The notes beneath the pieces were generated by a model. That model did no database searches and was not told the origin of the DNA. It saw only the letters and a program-made list of their open reading frames with translations. This document shows, one piece after another, positions 1 through 21,332 of a stretch of 64,000 nt of DNA. The number at the start of each line of letters is the position of its first letter. Positions within the stretch are counted from its first letter, which is position 1. The DNA is from Planococcus maritimus (GTDB lineage Bacteria; Bacillota; Bacilli; Bacillales_A; Planococcaceae). The translations under genes were made by a program, and so were the position numbers. The stretch covers positions 1,022,501 through 1,086,500 of the forward strand of contig NZ_CP016538.2 of the NCBI RefSeq assembly GCF_001687625.2. Reading direction: 5' to 3'.

Positions 1-2396
<2,396 letters not shown>

Positions 2397-2476
2397 ATAA
2401 CTGAAATGCGTTTCCATAATCCAATGTCGATTTATCCAGTTTTGAAAGAATAAGATAATATTTTTCAAAAAAATGC

Positions 2477-2504
2477 TTGAAATAATCGGTATTATTGATA
2501 TAAT
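2477..2504 (+). promoter_or_regulatory. Sigma-A-type promoter in the 23S-5S spacer
   Basis: TTGAAA (2477-2482), a 16-bp spacer and TATAAT (2499-2504) lie between the 23S and 5S genes, preceded by an A/T-rich tract (TTTTTCAAAAAAAT) that could act as an UP element. The predicted start is about 20 nt upstream of 5S. It could transcribe 5S and the tRNA cluster independently of the upstream rRNA genes. Seen in sequence; activity is inferred. Confidence 0.6.
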
Positions 2505-2530
2505 AAATCTTGTCTTTCAAATTAATACAG

Positions 2531-2646
<116 letters not shown>

Positions 2647-2656
2647 TGGATATTAT

Positions 2657-2731
2657 TCCGAAGTAGCTCAGTGGTAGAGCACCGCACTGTTAATGCGATG
2701 GTCGTAGGTTCGAGTCCTACCTTCGGAGCCA
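2657..2731 (+). tRNA. tRNA-Asn (GTT)
   Basis: Full cloverleaf with acceptor TCCGAAG/CTTCGGA, anticodon GTT and encoded CCA. First of the trnD-like cluster. Confidence 0.97.
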
Positions 2732-2736
2732 ATTTT

Positions 2737-2826
2737 GGAGAGCTGTCCGAGTGGCCGAAGGAGCATGATTGGAAATCATGTAGGCGGGCAACCGTCTCAA
2801 GGGTTCGAATCCCTTGCTCTCCGCCA
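2737..2826 (+). tRNA. tRNA-Ser (GGA)
   Basis: Class II tRNA with a long variable arm, anticodon GGA, acceptor GGAGAGC/GCTCTCC and encoded CCA. It starts 5 nt after tRNA-Asn. Confidence 0.96.
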
Positions 2827-2848
2827 GTATCTTAAGCTCAAAATTAAA

Positions 2849-2923
2849 GGCCCCTTGGTCAAGCGGTTAAGACACCGCCCTTTCACGGCGGTAACACGGG
2901 TTCGAATCCCGTAGGGGTCACCA
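2849..2923 (+). tRNA. tRNA-Glu (TTC)
   Basis: Cloverleaf with anticodon TTC in CTTTCAC, T-arm GGTTCGAATCC and encoded CCA. Confidence 0.96.
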
Positions 2924-2935
2924 TTTCATTTTCAC

Positions 2936-3011
2936 GGAGGATTAGCTCAGCTGGGAGAGCATCTGCCTTACAAGCAGAGGGTCGGCGGTTCGATCCCGTC
3001 ATCCTCCACCA
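2936..3011 (+). tRNA. tRNA-Val (TAC)
   Basis: Acceptor GGAGGAT/ATCCTCC, anticodon TAC, encoded CCA. Confidence 0.96.
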
Positions 3012-3051
3012 TTTCTTTCAAATTTACAAAGAGAAAGTGAAATATCATTAT

Positions 3052-3129
<78 letters not shown>

Positions 3130-3131
3130 AT

Positions 3132-3207
3132 GGTCCCGTGGTGTAGCGGTTAACATGCCTGCCTGTCACGCAGGAGATCGCCGGTTCGATCCCGGTCGGG
3201 ACCGCCA
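3132..3207 (+). tRNA. tRNA-Asp (GTC)
   Basis: Acceptor GGTCCCG/CGGGACC, anticodon GTC, encoded CCA. Only 3 nt separate it from tRNA-fMet. Confidence 0.96.
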
Positions 3208-3223
3208 TTTTTATTATTAATAT

Positions 3224-3299
3224 GGGTCAGTAGCTCAGTCGGTAGAGCATTAGATTGAAGCTCTAAGTGTCGGCGGTTCGATTCCGTCCTGACCCACCA
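3224..3299 (+). tRNA. tRNA-Phe (GAA)
   Basis: Acceptor GGGTCAG/CTGACCC, anticodon GAA, encoded CCA. Confidence 0.96.
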
Positions 3300-3314
3300 T
3301 ATTTTTATCTCCAT

Positions 3315-3390
<76 letters not shown>

Positions 3391-3393
3391 TTA

Positions 3394-3477
3394 GGTGGGG
3401 TAGCGAAGTGGCTAAACGCGGCGGACTGTAAATCCGCTCCTTCGGGTTCGGCAGTTCGAATCTGCCCCCCACCACCA
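3394..3477 (+). tRNA. tRNA-Tyr (GTA)
   Basis: Class II bacterial tyrosine tRNA with a long variable arm, anticodon GTA, acceptor GGTGGGG/CCCCACC and encoded CCA. Confidence 0.96.
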
Positions 3478-3483
3478 GTTTTT

Positions 3484-3557
3484 AGGGGCATAGTTTAACG
3501 GTAGAACAGAGGTCTCCAAAACCTCCGATGTGGGTTCGATTCCTACTGCCCCTGCCA
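3484..3557 (+). tRNA. tRNA-Trp (CCA)
   Basis: Acceptor AGGGGCA/TGCCCCT, anticodon CCA in CTCCAAA, encoded 3' CCA. Confidence 0.96.
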
Positions 3558-3576
3558 TTTTTTAAAATTATATGTT

Positions 3577-3653
3577 GGCGGTCGTGGCGAAGTGGTTAAC
3601 GCACCGGATTGTGATTCCGGCACTCGGGGGTTCAATTCCCCTCGTCCGCCCCA
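3577..3653 (+). tRNA. tRNA-His (GTG), copy 1
   Basis: Anticodon GTG, acceptor with the extra 5' G typical of tRNA-His, encoded CCA. The same sequence recurs as a second copy 41 nt downstream. Confidence 0.96.
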
Positions 3654-3694
3654 TGATTTTCTTGAAAATTTTATTTCATACATAATAATAACGT

Positions 3695-3771
3695 GGCGGT
3701 CGTGGCGAAGTGGTTAACGCACCGGATTGTGATTCCGGCACTCGGGGGTTCAATTCCCCTCGTCCGCCCCA
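3695..3771 (+). tRNA. tRNA-His (GTG), copy 2
   Basis: Identical over its length to the copy at 3577-3653. The spacers differ, so only the tRNA body is shared. B. subtilis trnD has a single His gene at this point, so this looks like a local tandem duplication. Confidence 0.95.
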
Positions 3772-3778
3772 GTATTAT

Positions 3779-3850
3779 TGGGGTATAGCCAAGCGGTAAG
3801 GCAACGGGTTTTGATCCCGTCATGCCCTGGTTCGAATCCAGGTACCCCAG
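3779..3850 (+). tRNA. tRNA-Gln (TTG)
   Basis: Acceptor TGGGGTA/TACCCCA with discriminator G, anticodon TTG. The 3' CCA is not encoded (GCTTT follows), so the transcript needs CCA addition. Confidence 0.94.
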
Positions 3851-3855
3851 CTTTT

Positions 3856-3930
3856 GCGGAAGTAGTTCAGTGGTAGAACGCCACCTTGCCAAGGTGGAGG
3901 TCGCGGGTTCGACCCCCGTCTTCCGCTCCA
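3856..3930 (+). tRNA. tRNA-Gly (GCC)
   Basis: Acceptor GCGGAAG/CTTCCGC, anticodon GCC, encoded CCA. It starts within 6 nt of the tRNA-Gln end. Confidence 0.96.
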
Positions 3931-3937
3931 TTATTTA

Positions 3938-4011
3938 GGCGGCATAGCCAAGCGGTAAGGCATGGGTCTGCAACACCCTTACCACCGGTTCGAGTCCGGT
4001 TGCCGCCTCCA
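3938..4011 (+). tRNA. tRNA-Cys (GCA)
   Basis: Acceptor GGCGGCA/TGCCGCC, anticodon GCA, encoded CCA. Confidence 0.96.
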
Positions 4012-4020
4012 AACTATTTT

Positions 4021-4104
4021 GCCGGCGTGGCGGAATTGGCAGACGCGCGGGACTCAAAATCCCGTTCCTTCACGGGAGTGTCGGTTCGACCCCGACCGCC
4101 GGTA
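4021..4104 (+). tRNA. tRNA-Leu (CAA), copy 1
   Basis: Class II tRNA with acceptor GCCGGCG/CGCCGGT, anticodon CAA (loop CTCAAAA) and a long variable arm. CCA is not encoded (TCA follows). It is followed by a small hairpin (about 4111-4132) and a terminator. An identical body occurs at 4323-4406. Confidence 0.94.
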
Positions 4105-4137
4105 TCATGATCATCACTCTGCCAAGTGATGAAAGCT

Positions 4138-4174
4138 AAAACCCTCGACTTCAATAGTCGAGGGTTTTTCTTTT
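4138..4174 (+). terminator. Intrinsic terminator of the rRNA-tRNA operon
   Basis: Perfect stem ACCCTCGACT / AGTCGAGGGT followed by TTTTTCTTTT. Ends the tRNA array after tRNA-Leu copy 1. Confidence 0.9.
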
Positions 4175-4246
4175 GAGCAATTAATGAAGAAAACAACCAG
4201 TGTGTATTAAAGGTAAGAAGTTTTTCAAAAAAATAACGTATACCCC

Positions 4247-4275
4247 TTGCAAAATAAACGATTTACTAATATAAT
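4247..4275 (+). promoter_or_regulatory. Promoter of the second tRNA-Leu gene
   Basis: TTGCAA (4247-4252), 17-bp spacer, TATAAT (4270-4275), preceded by an A-rich TTTTTCAAAAAAAT tract like the one before the 23S-5S spacer promoter. The predicted start is about 40 nt before the tRNA. Confidence 0.75.
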
Positions 4276-4322
4276 AATAAATGTTCCTGAAAGCAATATG
4301 AAATGCTTTGGGAGTTAATTTT

Positions 4323-4406
4323 GCCGGCGTGGCGGAATTGGCAGACGCGCGGGACTCAAAATCCCGTTCCTTCACGGGAGTGTCGGTTCGACCCCGACCG
4401 CCGGTA
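4323..4406 (+). tRNA. tRNA-Leu (CAA), copy 2
   Basis: Same 84-nt body as the copy at 4021-4104, again without encoded CCA. It is a stand-alone unit with its own promoter (4247-4275) and terminator (4437-4466). Its 3' trailer forms the same loop-closing hairpin as copy 1 but with compensating base changes. Confidence 0.94.
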
Positions 4407-19372: not shown

Positions 19373-20008
19373 ATGAGAGTATTGATTGCGGATGATCACC
19401 ACGTAGTAAGAAGAGGGCTGCTGTTTTTCTTGAAAACGCAAAAAGACATTGAAGTGGTGGGGGAAGCGGCGAATGGCGTCGAGGCTGTCAAAATGGCAGG
19501 TGAGCTGCAGCCGGATATCGTCTTGATGGATCTCGTCATGCCGGAAATGGACGGCATCGAGGCTACTCGGAACATCAAAGCGTCTTATCCGGAAATCATC
19601 GTCTTGATGCTGACAAGCTTTTCAGACCGCGATCACATCCTGCCGGCAATTGAGGCAGGGGCAGCTGGTTATCAGCTAAAAGACATCGAACCGGATGAAC
19701 TCGTCGAATCGCTGCGCAGTTTGATGCGCGGGGAGAATACGCTGCATCCGAAAGCGTCCTCGGAACTGGCAAAAGCGCCGGAAGCCCCGCCGCCTCATGT
19801 GCTGCATCCGTTGACGCCAAGGGAAGCGGAAGTGCTTGCGGAGTTAACGAAGGGGAAAAGCAACCGGGAAGTGGCGTCTGCTTTGTTCGTGACGGAGAAG
19901 ACAGTGAAGACGCATATTTCCAATATCTTTATCAAACTCGAAGTCCAAGACCGGACGCAAGCAGCACTTTATGCAGTGAAGCACGGATTGACAGAATATG
20001 TTAACTGA
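19373..20008 (+). CDS. yhcZ: NarL/LuxR-family response regulator (YhcZ / AirR-like)
   Basis: A 211-residue DNA-binding response regulator. The receiver domain has the acidic pair Asp7-Asp8, phosphorylation site Asp53 (VLMDLVMPEMDG) and the conserved Lys in QLKDI. A proline-rich linker (APEAPPPH) leads to a LuxR-type helix-turn-helix (LTPREAEVLAELTKGKSNREVA, TEKTVKTHISNI). It is the partner of the GAF kinase immediately upstream and is translated from a GGAGTG site. Targets are unknown; in S. aureus AirR controls redox and cell-wall genes. Confidence 0.93.
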   Translation: MRVLIADDHHVVRRGLLFFLKTQKDIEVVGEAANGVEAVKMAGELQPDIVLMDLVMPEMDGIEATRNIKASYPEIIVLMLTSFSDRDHILPAIEAGAAGYQLKDIEPDELVESLRSLMRGENTLHPKASSELAKAPEAPPPHVLHPLTPREAEVLAELTKGKSNREVASALFVTEKTVKTHISNIFIKLEVQDRTQAALYAVKHGLTEYVN

Positions 20009-20015
20009 AGGAAAT

Positions 20016-20052
20016 AAAAAAGACTGCCGGATTTTCCATCCGGCAGTCTTTT
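20016..20052. terminator. Bidirectional terminator between yhcZ and rsgA
   Basis: Stem AAAAGACTGCCGG / CCGGCAGTCTTTT flanked by A- and T-runs. Confidence 0.88.
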
Positions 20053-21106
20053 ATCTCTTCTTGATGGGGCGGCTGCGGTATTCTTTCGTGCGCTGTTTCC
20101 ACACTGCCCGTTCTGCCTGTTGTTTGGCAGCGTCACTTTTTCGTTCGATATAGTCGAGTTCACGCAGTAATTTCAAATAGCTCGCATAGCGGTCTTCCGG
20201 CAATTCACCGGAAGCGAGTGCCGATTGAATGCGACAGCCGGGTTCTTGCTGGTGGCTGCAATCACGAAAACGGCATTCGTCGGCAAGGCTCGTGATATCT
20301 TGAAAGCTTGCCTCAAGCCCGTCAGCGGAATCGCCGAGCTGGAATTCACGCATGCCTGGTGTATCAATCAGTAAGCCGCCGCCTGGCAGCAACACCAGTT
20401 CGCGATGTGTCGTCGTATGGCGGCCTTTGCTGTCGTCTTCCCGGATCTCCTGCACGGCCATTTTATCGCTATGAGTCAAAGCATTGATCAGCGAAGATTT
20501 GCCGACCCCTGATGAGCCAAGCAACGCACCAGTTTTGCCATTCGTCAAATAGCGGTCAAAAGCTTCCATGCCCGCTCCGGTTACAGCCGACACGGCAAAC
20601 ACATCGACGCCCAAAGCGGTATCAGCAACTTCTTTTAAGTAAACCGAAGGGTCCTCGCATCGGTCGCTTTTTGTCAGCACGACGACCGGCATGGCACCTG
20701 AATCCCAGGCAGCGACCATATAGCGCTCCAGACGCCGGACATTGAAATCGTGATTGAGCGACATAACCAAGAATACATAGTCGAGATTGACGGCGATGGT
20801 CTGCATGTCGGACGTTTCCCCGGCCGCTTTTCGGGTGAATCGTGAACTTCTTGGCATGAGGTGATGGATAATGCCTTTGTCTTCTCCAGGCATTTGTTCG
20901 AGCGCCACCCAGTCACCAACACAAGGGAATTCATCGGGGTTATGGCTATGGCGGTAAGTTCCGGATAAAGTTGCCGGCCATTCACCGAAATCGGTTATAA
21001 CGCGGTAGCTGCTTTTGTGTTCGAGAATGATGCGACCCGGTATTTTCTGTTCAGGCAATGTTTGTGCGAATGATTCGTTCCATCCGTATTGGGTAATAAT
21101 TGACAA
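20051..21106 (-). CDS. rsgA: RsgA-type circularly permuted ribosome GTPase
   Basis: A 351-residue GTPase of the RsgA/YjeQ/CpgA family, acting in late 30S subunit maturation. Order: OB-fold N-terminus, then the permuted G domain with G4 TKSD (145-148) before G1 GSSGVGKS (197-204) and G3 DTPG (248-251), and a zinc knuckle Cys278, Cys283, His285, Cys291. The C-terminus is basic. It is about 50 residues longer than the usual Bacillales RsgA/CpgA and is not next to the rpe/thiN-type genes that flank the canonical copy, so it may be a second paralogue (inference). TTG start behind AGGAGG. A leader with a small ORF and two terminators precedes it. Confidence 0.9.
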   Translation of the reverse strand: MSIITQYGWNESFAQTLPEQKIPGRIILEHKSSYRVITDFGEWPATLSGTYRHSHNPDEFPCVGDWVALEQMPGEDKGIIHHLMPRSSRFTRKAAGETSDMQTIAVNLDYVFLVMSLNHDFNVRRLERYMVAAWDSGAMPVVVLTKSDRCEDPSVYLKEVADTALGVDVFAVSAVTGAGMEAFDRYLTNGKTGALLGSSGVGKSSLINALTHSDKMAVQEIREDDSKGRHTTTHRELVLLPGGGLLIDTPGMREFQLGDSADGLEASFQDITSLADECRFRDCSHQQEPGCRIQSALASGELPEDRYASYLKLLRELDYIERKSDAAKQQAERAVWKQRTKEYRSRPIKKR

Positions 21107-21134
21107 TGTAACTTCCTCCTATAAAAACGCATAA

Positions 21135-21171
21135 TAAAAAACCATGGCTGCAATAATGCTTGCCATGGTTT
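21135..21171 (-). terminator. Leader terminator 2 upstream of rsgA
   Basis: On the minus strand AAACCATGGC / GCCATGGTTT with a 13-nt loop, followed by TTTATTAT. It lies in the 5' leader, 28 nt before the rsgA start, so it must be bypassed for expression. Confidence 0.75.
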
Positions 21172-21183
21172 CCGCGCGTTAGG

Positions 21184-21209
21184 AAAAAAGCGTATCGTCA
21201 GCGATACAC
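21184..21209 (-). terminator. Leader terminator 1 upstream of rsgA, overlapping the leader ORF
   Basis: Minus-strand stem GTGTATCG / CGATACGC (one G-U pair), loop CTGA, then TTTTTT. The loop contains the TGA stop of the leader ORF, and its 5' arm encodes the last residues. Confidence 0.7.
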
Positions 21210-21272
21210 AGAGGGAGACACCATAGCAAACACTATTAAGTTACGGGTTGCACGAACTGAAATAGCCACCAT
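21198..21272 (-). CDS. Leader peptide ORF (24 aa) upstream of rsgA
   Basis: ATG at 21272 preceded by AGAGGTGAGG at good spacing, 24 codons, TGA at 21198-21200. The peptide begins MVAISVRATRN and ends SPSVYR. It is not a recognised family. Its position between a good promoter and two intrinsic terminators, ahead of a ribosome GTPase gene, matches the layout of ribosome-mediated attenuation leaders. Codons 16-18 contain GCTATGGT, able to pair with ACCATGGC in the 5' arm of terminator 2. The small-ORF call rests on the ribosome binding site and context only. Confidence 0.55.
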   Translation of the reverse strand: MVAISVRATRNLIVFAMVSPSVYR

Positions 21273-21303
21273 AATACCTCACCTCTTTCCATTAGTTACA
21301 CCC

Positions 21304-21332
21304 ATCATACCGGTAAATAAATGGCAGGTCAA
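21304..21332 (-). promoter_or_regulatory. Promoter of the rsgA leader transcript
   Basis: Minus strand TTGACC (21332-21327), 17-bp spacer, TATGAT (21309-21304). The predicted start is about 25 nt before the leader ORF. Confidence 0.7.

Follow-up and report, generated by a model that had tools for sequence, protein, structure and literature searches.

The window, that is, the whole 64,000-nucleotide stretch of Planococcus maritimus DNA analysed here, carries on its minus strand a gene for an RsgA-type GTPase, which we call rsgA2. The gene is preceded by a promoter, a short leader ORF and a series of hairpins, and the gene upstream of this unit lies on the opposite strand. The features are as follows.

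21304..21332, minus strand: sigma-A type promoter, TTGACC-17-TATGAT (motif match and recurrence at homologues)
21287..21290, minus strand: 5' strand of P0 (GGAA), whose partner is 21185-21182; the helix closes a three-way junction that contains P1 and T1 (minimum free energy folds, 38 leaders)
21261..21286, minus strand: 5' strand of P1, made up of the leader Shine-Dalgarno, the start codon and codons 2-4
21198..21272, minus strand: leader ORF, 24 codons and TGA, peptide MVAISVRATRNLIVFAMVSPSVYR
21210..21237, minus strand: 3' strand of P1, codons 12-21, a pairing that would sequester the antiterminator strand
21214..21238, minus strand: 5' strand of the antiterminator (AT), within the leader ORF (19+3 bp duplex; covariation, 38 species)
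21190..21209, minus strand: hairpin T1, with the leader stop codon (TGA) in its loop and six T after it
21151..21173, minus strand: 3' strand of AT, made up of T2's upstream flank, its 5' arm and its loop
21136..21173, minus strand: intrinsic terminator T2 with a T6 tail
21113..21120, minus strand: rsgA2 Shine-Dalgarno AGGAGGAA, its GGAGGAA core conserved
20051..21106, minus strand: rsgA2, RsgA paralog GTPase, 351 aa, TTG start at 21106

An earlier note on this DNA had proposed a ribosome-mediated attenuator here. The 24-codon leader ORF with a good ribosome binding site (21272-21198) that it described is present, as is its promoter TTGACC-17-TATGAT (21332-21304). Taken alone, the promoter match is at chance level, with 2 found and 2.0 expected; TTGACC together with a -10 box recurs 5' of most of the homologous Planococcus genes. 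An Rfam search of the window gave only rRNA and tRNA matches at the gathering threshold, and no riboswitch or T-box. Positions 1-4406 of the window hold the end of an rRNA operon, then a dense run of 17 tRNA genes. Between rsgA2 and the convergent response-regulator gene (19373-20008) lies a strong inverted repeat with a T tract (20010-20051) that may serve both strands.

The rsgA2 product matches PF03193, the RsgA_GTPase domain, with E=2.5e-53, and scores 174.1 bits with TIGR00157, for which the cut-off is 100. Solved RsgA structures match it as well, up to E=1.7e-40. RsgA acts on late 30S assembly, as a housekeeping checkpoint of that process. A housekeeping-type rsgA occurs elsewhere in the same genome (G000:C1:1991349-1991996), and its product is 38% identical to RsgA2. 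In a tree with 38 proteins of RsgA2 type and 21 of canonical type, the two groups fall on two sides of one branch with a support of 100/100. We therefore rejected rsgA2 as the orthologue of the housekeeping gene: its sequence places it in a separate clade of RsgA paralogs, RsgA2. The earlier suggestion that the output of the 30S-maturation GTPase is controlled at this locus must be dropped, because the target is the paralog and the housekeeping rsgA stands elsewhere.

The gene is present with a single open frame in 33 of the 35 other Planococcus genomes, is split in two in one and absent from one. At the E-value limits applied, it was found in 121 of 151 genomes of the family and in 135 of 300 of the class. 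In one Planococcus assembly, rsgA2 (G032:C1:1007813-1008861) and the canonical rsgA (G032:C1:2138541-2139303) are both split into two frames, which is more likely a sequencing error than gene loss. Besides the main copy, several genomes of the family have another gene of RsgA2 type that is more divergent (45-48% identity), for example at G081:C8:225245-226219, G130:C2:333681-334658 and G161:C44:1474-2439. On plasmid pMGMM7 of Lysinibacillus fusiformis (L233:2989-4511), rsgA2 directly adjoins the fosfomycin resistance gene fosM and has no visible leader ORF; we did not retain this single plasmid copy as a sign of mobile resistance.

All 38 distinct Planococcus leaders contain an ATG ORF led by a Shine-Dalgarno sequence, which is predicted to be translated. 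Its length is 20, 21, 22, 24 or 25 codons, every length difference being a multiple of 3, and the noncoding spacer after its stop varies by single bases, from 87 to 97. The peptides are of two subtypes, MVTISVRATRNLMMFA..SPSVYR and MAILFLNTQFQSIVSPSVYR. Synonymous changes account for 0.30-0.37 of codon differences, compared with 0.22-0.25 expected; since this excess is only mild, the ORF seems to be kept more than its peptide, and an arrest specific to the peptide is not strongly supported. No Planococcus leader contains the RLR-type macrolide arrest motif, while the leader of genus g28 does (TRLRGAF). Between genera, the peptides are unrelated or only distantly alike; the layout of leader ORF and terminator nonetheless recurs at 69 further loci of the family, with quite different peptides.

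The ORF was also compared with dinucleotide shuffles of the same upstream regions, counting ATG ORFs of 12-35 codons led by a Shine-Dalgarno of at least 6 bases. Such an ORF was observed in 30 of 30 Planococcus regions (0.3% of shuffles), at 57 of 80 other loci of the family (0.6%) and at 27 of 58 loci from other families of Bacilli (0.9%), counts that are not independent, as the species are related; the shuffle controls ignore this kinship.

The 201-nt leader folds at -73.1 kcal/mol, with z = -7.1 relative to shuffles. Minimum free energy folds of the 38 leaders follow the same plan in nearly all cases: a junction closed by P0, P1, T1 and then T2. The antiterminator pairs UAAUAGUGUUUGCUAUGGU (21238-21220) with ACCAUGGCAAGCAUUAUUG (21169-21151) over 19 bp, including several G-U, to which UCC/GGA adds three more; the duplex of 19 bp plus 3 bp amounts to -28.9 kcal/mol. 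The 8-bp pairing GCTATGGT/ACCATGGC of the original proposal exists and overlaps T2, but it is the core of this longer duplex and not its full extent.

In the 38-leader alignment, AT is 82.6% paired, and 47.5% at most when one partner is slid. Changes on both sides are seen at 8 pairs of AT (70 such cells, 29 in shuffles), 3 pairs of T2, which is 97% paired (34 and 11.8), 4 pairs of P1 (26 and 10.5) and 1 pair of P0 (13 and 4.9); in these double-change counts it is the cells that exceed the shuffles, and the pairs do not. T1 is 99% paired in the 38 species and, being almost invariant, has no covariation. AT is mutually exclusive with T2, a conclusion supported by the covariation.

The two hairpins differ as terminators. 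With the d'Aubenton-Carafa score, T2 is above 0 in 37 of 38 leaders and T1 in only 3, namely in the window, where the score is weak (d = 5.3), and in its two nearest matches in this respect. The score agrees with the terminator placed before the rsgA start. T1 is conserved as a hairpin, and the TGA does lie in its loop, as described earlier, but on this score it was rejected as a conserved terminator. The stretch CUUCUUCC that follows it, first read as its U-tract, is interrupted in 35 of 38 leaders; its possible partner is the 5' end (P0). At the other loci of the family, an intrinsic terminator comes after the leader in 69 of 69.

Relatives of the window thus keep the leader ORF (38 of 38), the T1 and T2 hairpins and a covarying AT pairing. 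With the leader ORF conserved, and AT and T2 mutually exclusive and both carrying compensatory changes, a ribosome-mediated attenuator before an RsgA-type GTPase is strongly supported, and we regard its existence as highly probable.

To see how a ribosome would act on these structures, we computed folds of each leader through T2 in which the stretch covered by a ribosome was barred from pairing, moving this footprint codon by codon, as an equilibrium calculation with four footprint sizes. With no ribosome, T2 forms (0.91 over 38 species). With the P-site at codons 1-3, AT reaches 0.47-0.68 across the four footprint sizes (0.49-0.68 for codon 1 or 2), and it is lower at codon 4. A ribosome in the middle of the leader brings AT to 0.00-0.01, and T2 forms again. 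In silico, then, the position of the ribosome decides the structure of the leader. Until the 3' arm of T2 has been made, AT is the preferred structure with no ribosome present at all (0.72, in 30 of 38), so that the default state would depend on folding kinetics: P1 must form first, and hold.

The same calculation extends to the other genera. Without a ribosome, T2 forms at 65 of the 69 other loci of the family. Masking codon 1 lowers T2 by at least 0.3 at 29 of 65 other-genus loci, masking codons 8-10 at none of the 65; the effect is highest at codon 1 and gone by codon 8. When everything 5' of the terminator was shuffled in 47 other-genus loci, the codon-1 effect fell from 53% to 1%. That it depends on the native sequence across widely differing peptides is, within the limits of the model, the strongest evidence for a sensor in the start region. 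About half of the other loci of the family have no codon-1 effect in the model.

We propose the following mechanism. By default, the start region of the leader (Shine-Dalgarno, AUG and codons 2-4) would pair with codons 12-21 to form P1; P1 would sequester the AT strand, T2 would form and transcription would end before rsgA2. A ribosome moving through the middle of the leader would also mask the AT strand, with the same outcome. A ribosome trapped at the start codon or within the next few codons would instead cover the 5' strand of P1, and codons 12-18, set free, could pair with T2 along its 5' arm and loop over some 20 bp, so that T2 is blocked and rsgA2 is transcribed. The leader peptide would not need to be conserved, because the trigger is the start region. 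As a whole, we read the locus as a start-region-sensing, ribosome-mediated transcription attenuator controlling rsgA2, with a probability of about 0.7; that transcription really ends or reads through here, where ribosomes stall in cells, what induces the switch and what RsgA2 does are the inferred parts of this reading. Start-region sensing is, on the folding model, quite probably the conserved trigger.

The earlier note had placed the trigger elsewhere, at the end of the leader: a ribosome pausing over the last codons would block T1 and leave AT free. In a fuller form of this explanation, the pause could also fall at the stop, transcription would read through into rsgA2, and the arrest would depend on the C-terminal SVYR. 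In the window and in leader L003, a last-codon ribosome does give an AT of 0.62; within Planococcus, both the stop in the T1 loop and the peptide end SVYR (or a near variant) are conserved, and in the window T1 has a terminator score above 0. With six U behind it, the T1 of the window could end transcription early, which would make an early stall less effective and a late one more so. Over the 38 species, however, the mean AT with a last-codon ribosome is 0.03-0.09, the T1 score is positive in only 3 of 38, the C-terminus is unrelated in other genera, and masking the last codon has its effect at 3 of 65 loci. The last-codon pause thus frees AT in two leaders and hardly in the others (mean 0.09 at most), whereas codons 1-4 release T2 across the genus and at about half of the other loci of the family. 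Masked folding does not support a late stall as the conserved trigger, and we consider that explanation improbable, though it may apply in the window's own species.

Slightly less probable still is a feedback from the state of the ribosome, in which immature 30S or (p)ppGpp slows the start of elongation and turns rsgA2 on with no drug involved. RsgA is known to act on late 30S assembly, and a start-codon sensor would register a slow transit from initiation to elongation by an identical RNA logic; but the housekeeping rsgA is distinct from this gene and lies elsewhere, and related attenuators respond to drugs. Amino-acid attenuation of the trp/his type, where the ribosome on the leader stalls for want of one aminoacyl-tRNA, shares the architecture of a leader ORF with mutually exclusive terminator and antiterminator. 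It is very unlikely here: the leaders have no runs of one regulatory codon, the peptides differ between genera, and the sensing region is codons 1-4. That there is no regulation at all, with leader ORF and hairpins incidental or T2 serving only to end another transcript, is scarcely credible, for although the promoter match by itself is at chance level, AT, P1 and T2 have compensatory changes, the leader ORF is far above shuffles in three taxonomic sets, the structure-dependent codon-1 effect is lost on shuffling, and the upstream neighbour lies on the other strand.

Returning to the start-region sensor, what induces it naturally is most likely an inhibitor of translation, or a stress, by which ribosomes are trapped during initiation or very soon after, and we judge it fairly probable that the attenuator responds to a drug or to translation stress. 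Tetracycline, pleuromutilins and lincosamides cause such trapping and are the candidate inducers. RsgA2 itself would most likely be an inducible ribosome-directed stress factor. That its clade usually stands behind leader ORFs, like ABC-F and HflXr genes, suggests an action on stalled or drug-bound ribosomes, not in routine assembly. The locus offers a testable inducer class and a testable phenotype, and natural sensors of start-codon stalling with very different peptides would be useful to separate peptide-specific from position-specific sensing.

Leader ORFs also precede rsgA2 at many loci in other families of Bacilli, mostly without a terminator; we regard these leaders as a related but separate question. 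In Listeria monocytogenes NZ_LR134403.1 (L211:1112-1168), rsgA2 lies beside pnp behind an 18-codon leader ORF, MAIVKMENLIINTGVFYL, and a GCTCC/GGAGC hairpin, read by eye, can cover the rsgA2 Shine-Dalgarno. This is predicted to be a translational rather than a transcriptional version of the control. Ribosome masking of such Shine-Dalgarno occlusion platforms outside the family gave no clear pattern. In family f16 (L202-L204, L066), leaders end in ...QGGVSLP or ...RRAVVLHH; in some, there are CCTCC stretches that complement the Shine-Dalgarno of rsgA2 and the stop lies close before the start of that gene, and translational coupling to rsgA2 is possible.

More tentatively, and at somewhat less than even odds, the RsgA2 proteins may make up a class of inducible GTPases, so far unrecognised and widespread among Bacilli, that protect or rescue ribosomes. 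Their genes would be turned on through leader ORFs, the signal sensed being ribosomes that tetracycline-, pleuromutilin- or lincosamide-like inhibitors arrest at initiation. This control would have persisted through repeated turnover of the peptides and of the output platforms (a terminator in Planococcaceae; in other families mostly none, possibly Shine-Dalgarno occlusion).

No report joining RsgA with attenuation, leader peptides or Term-seq was found in the open-access papers searched, in agreement with the earlier note, whose author knew of no attenuator for an RsgA GTPase. The mechanism is of a known kind, since leader-ORF attenuators and start-codon sensing have precedents; to the extent of our checks, what is new is the gene family under control and how widely it is spread. 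Housekeeping RsgA/YloQ (CpgA) belongs to the same GTPase family and has the same RsgA_GTPase domain, but forms the separate clade (100/100) and has 38% identity in the same genome.

Of the two RsgA/EngC paralogs of Streptomyces coelicolor, one depends on WblC, the antibiotic-response regulator, and on tetracycline (PMC7157823). Control there is by a transcription factor (WblC/WhiB7), whereas an RNA switch is proposed for rsgA2. In E. coli, tetracycline and retapamulin act at the start codon of the toiL uORF before topAI (PMC12121999), and toiL, as in our model of the rsgA2 leader, senses through ribosomes held at that codon. It differs in controlling translation and Rho-dependent termination of a toxin-antitoxin operon, whereas the platform of rsgA2 is an intrinsic terminator.

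The attenuators of ARE-ABCF genes (vmlR, vgaL/lmo0919, msrD, tiaA, are5sc; PMC12421871) likewise combine a uORF with a terminator/antiterminator switch. In the ARE5 uORFs, LSAP drugs stall ribosomes at start codons and the uORF ribosome binding site overlaps antiterminators (PMC12421871), two traits that tiaA and are5sc share with the model for rsgA2. These attenuators control ATPases of known resistance function, whereas rsgA2 encodes an RsgA paralog without a phenotype in the papers found. In spirit, the nearest known system would be hflXr (lmo0762) of Listeria monocytogenes, an HflX paralog under an attenuator with a leader ORF in rli80, which responds to erythromycin and lincomycin (PMC6310831). 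Like rsgA2, it is a second copy of a ribosome-associated GTPase in a Gram-positive, with a leader ORF, alternative RNA structures and premature termination. The two differ in that hflXr encodes an HflX homologue behind a 14-aa RLR peptide, while RsgA2 is of RsgA type, most of its leaders are without RLR, and its sensing is predicted to lie in the start region.
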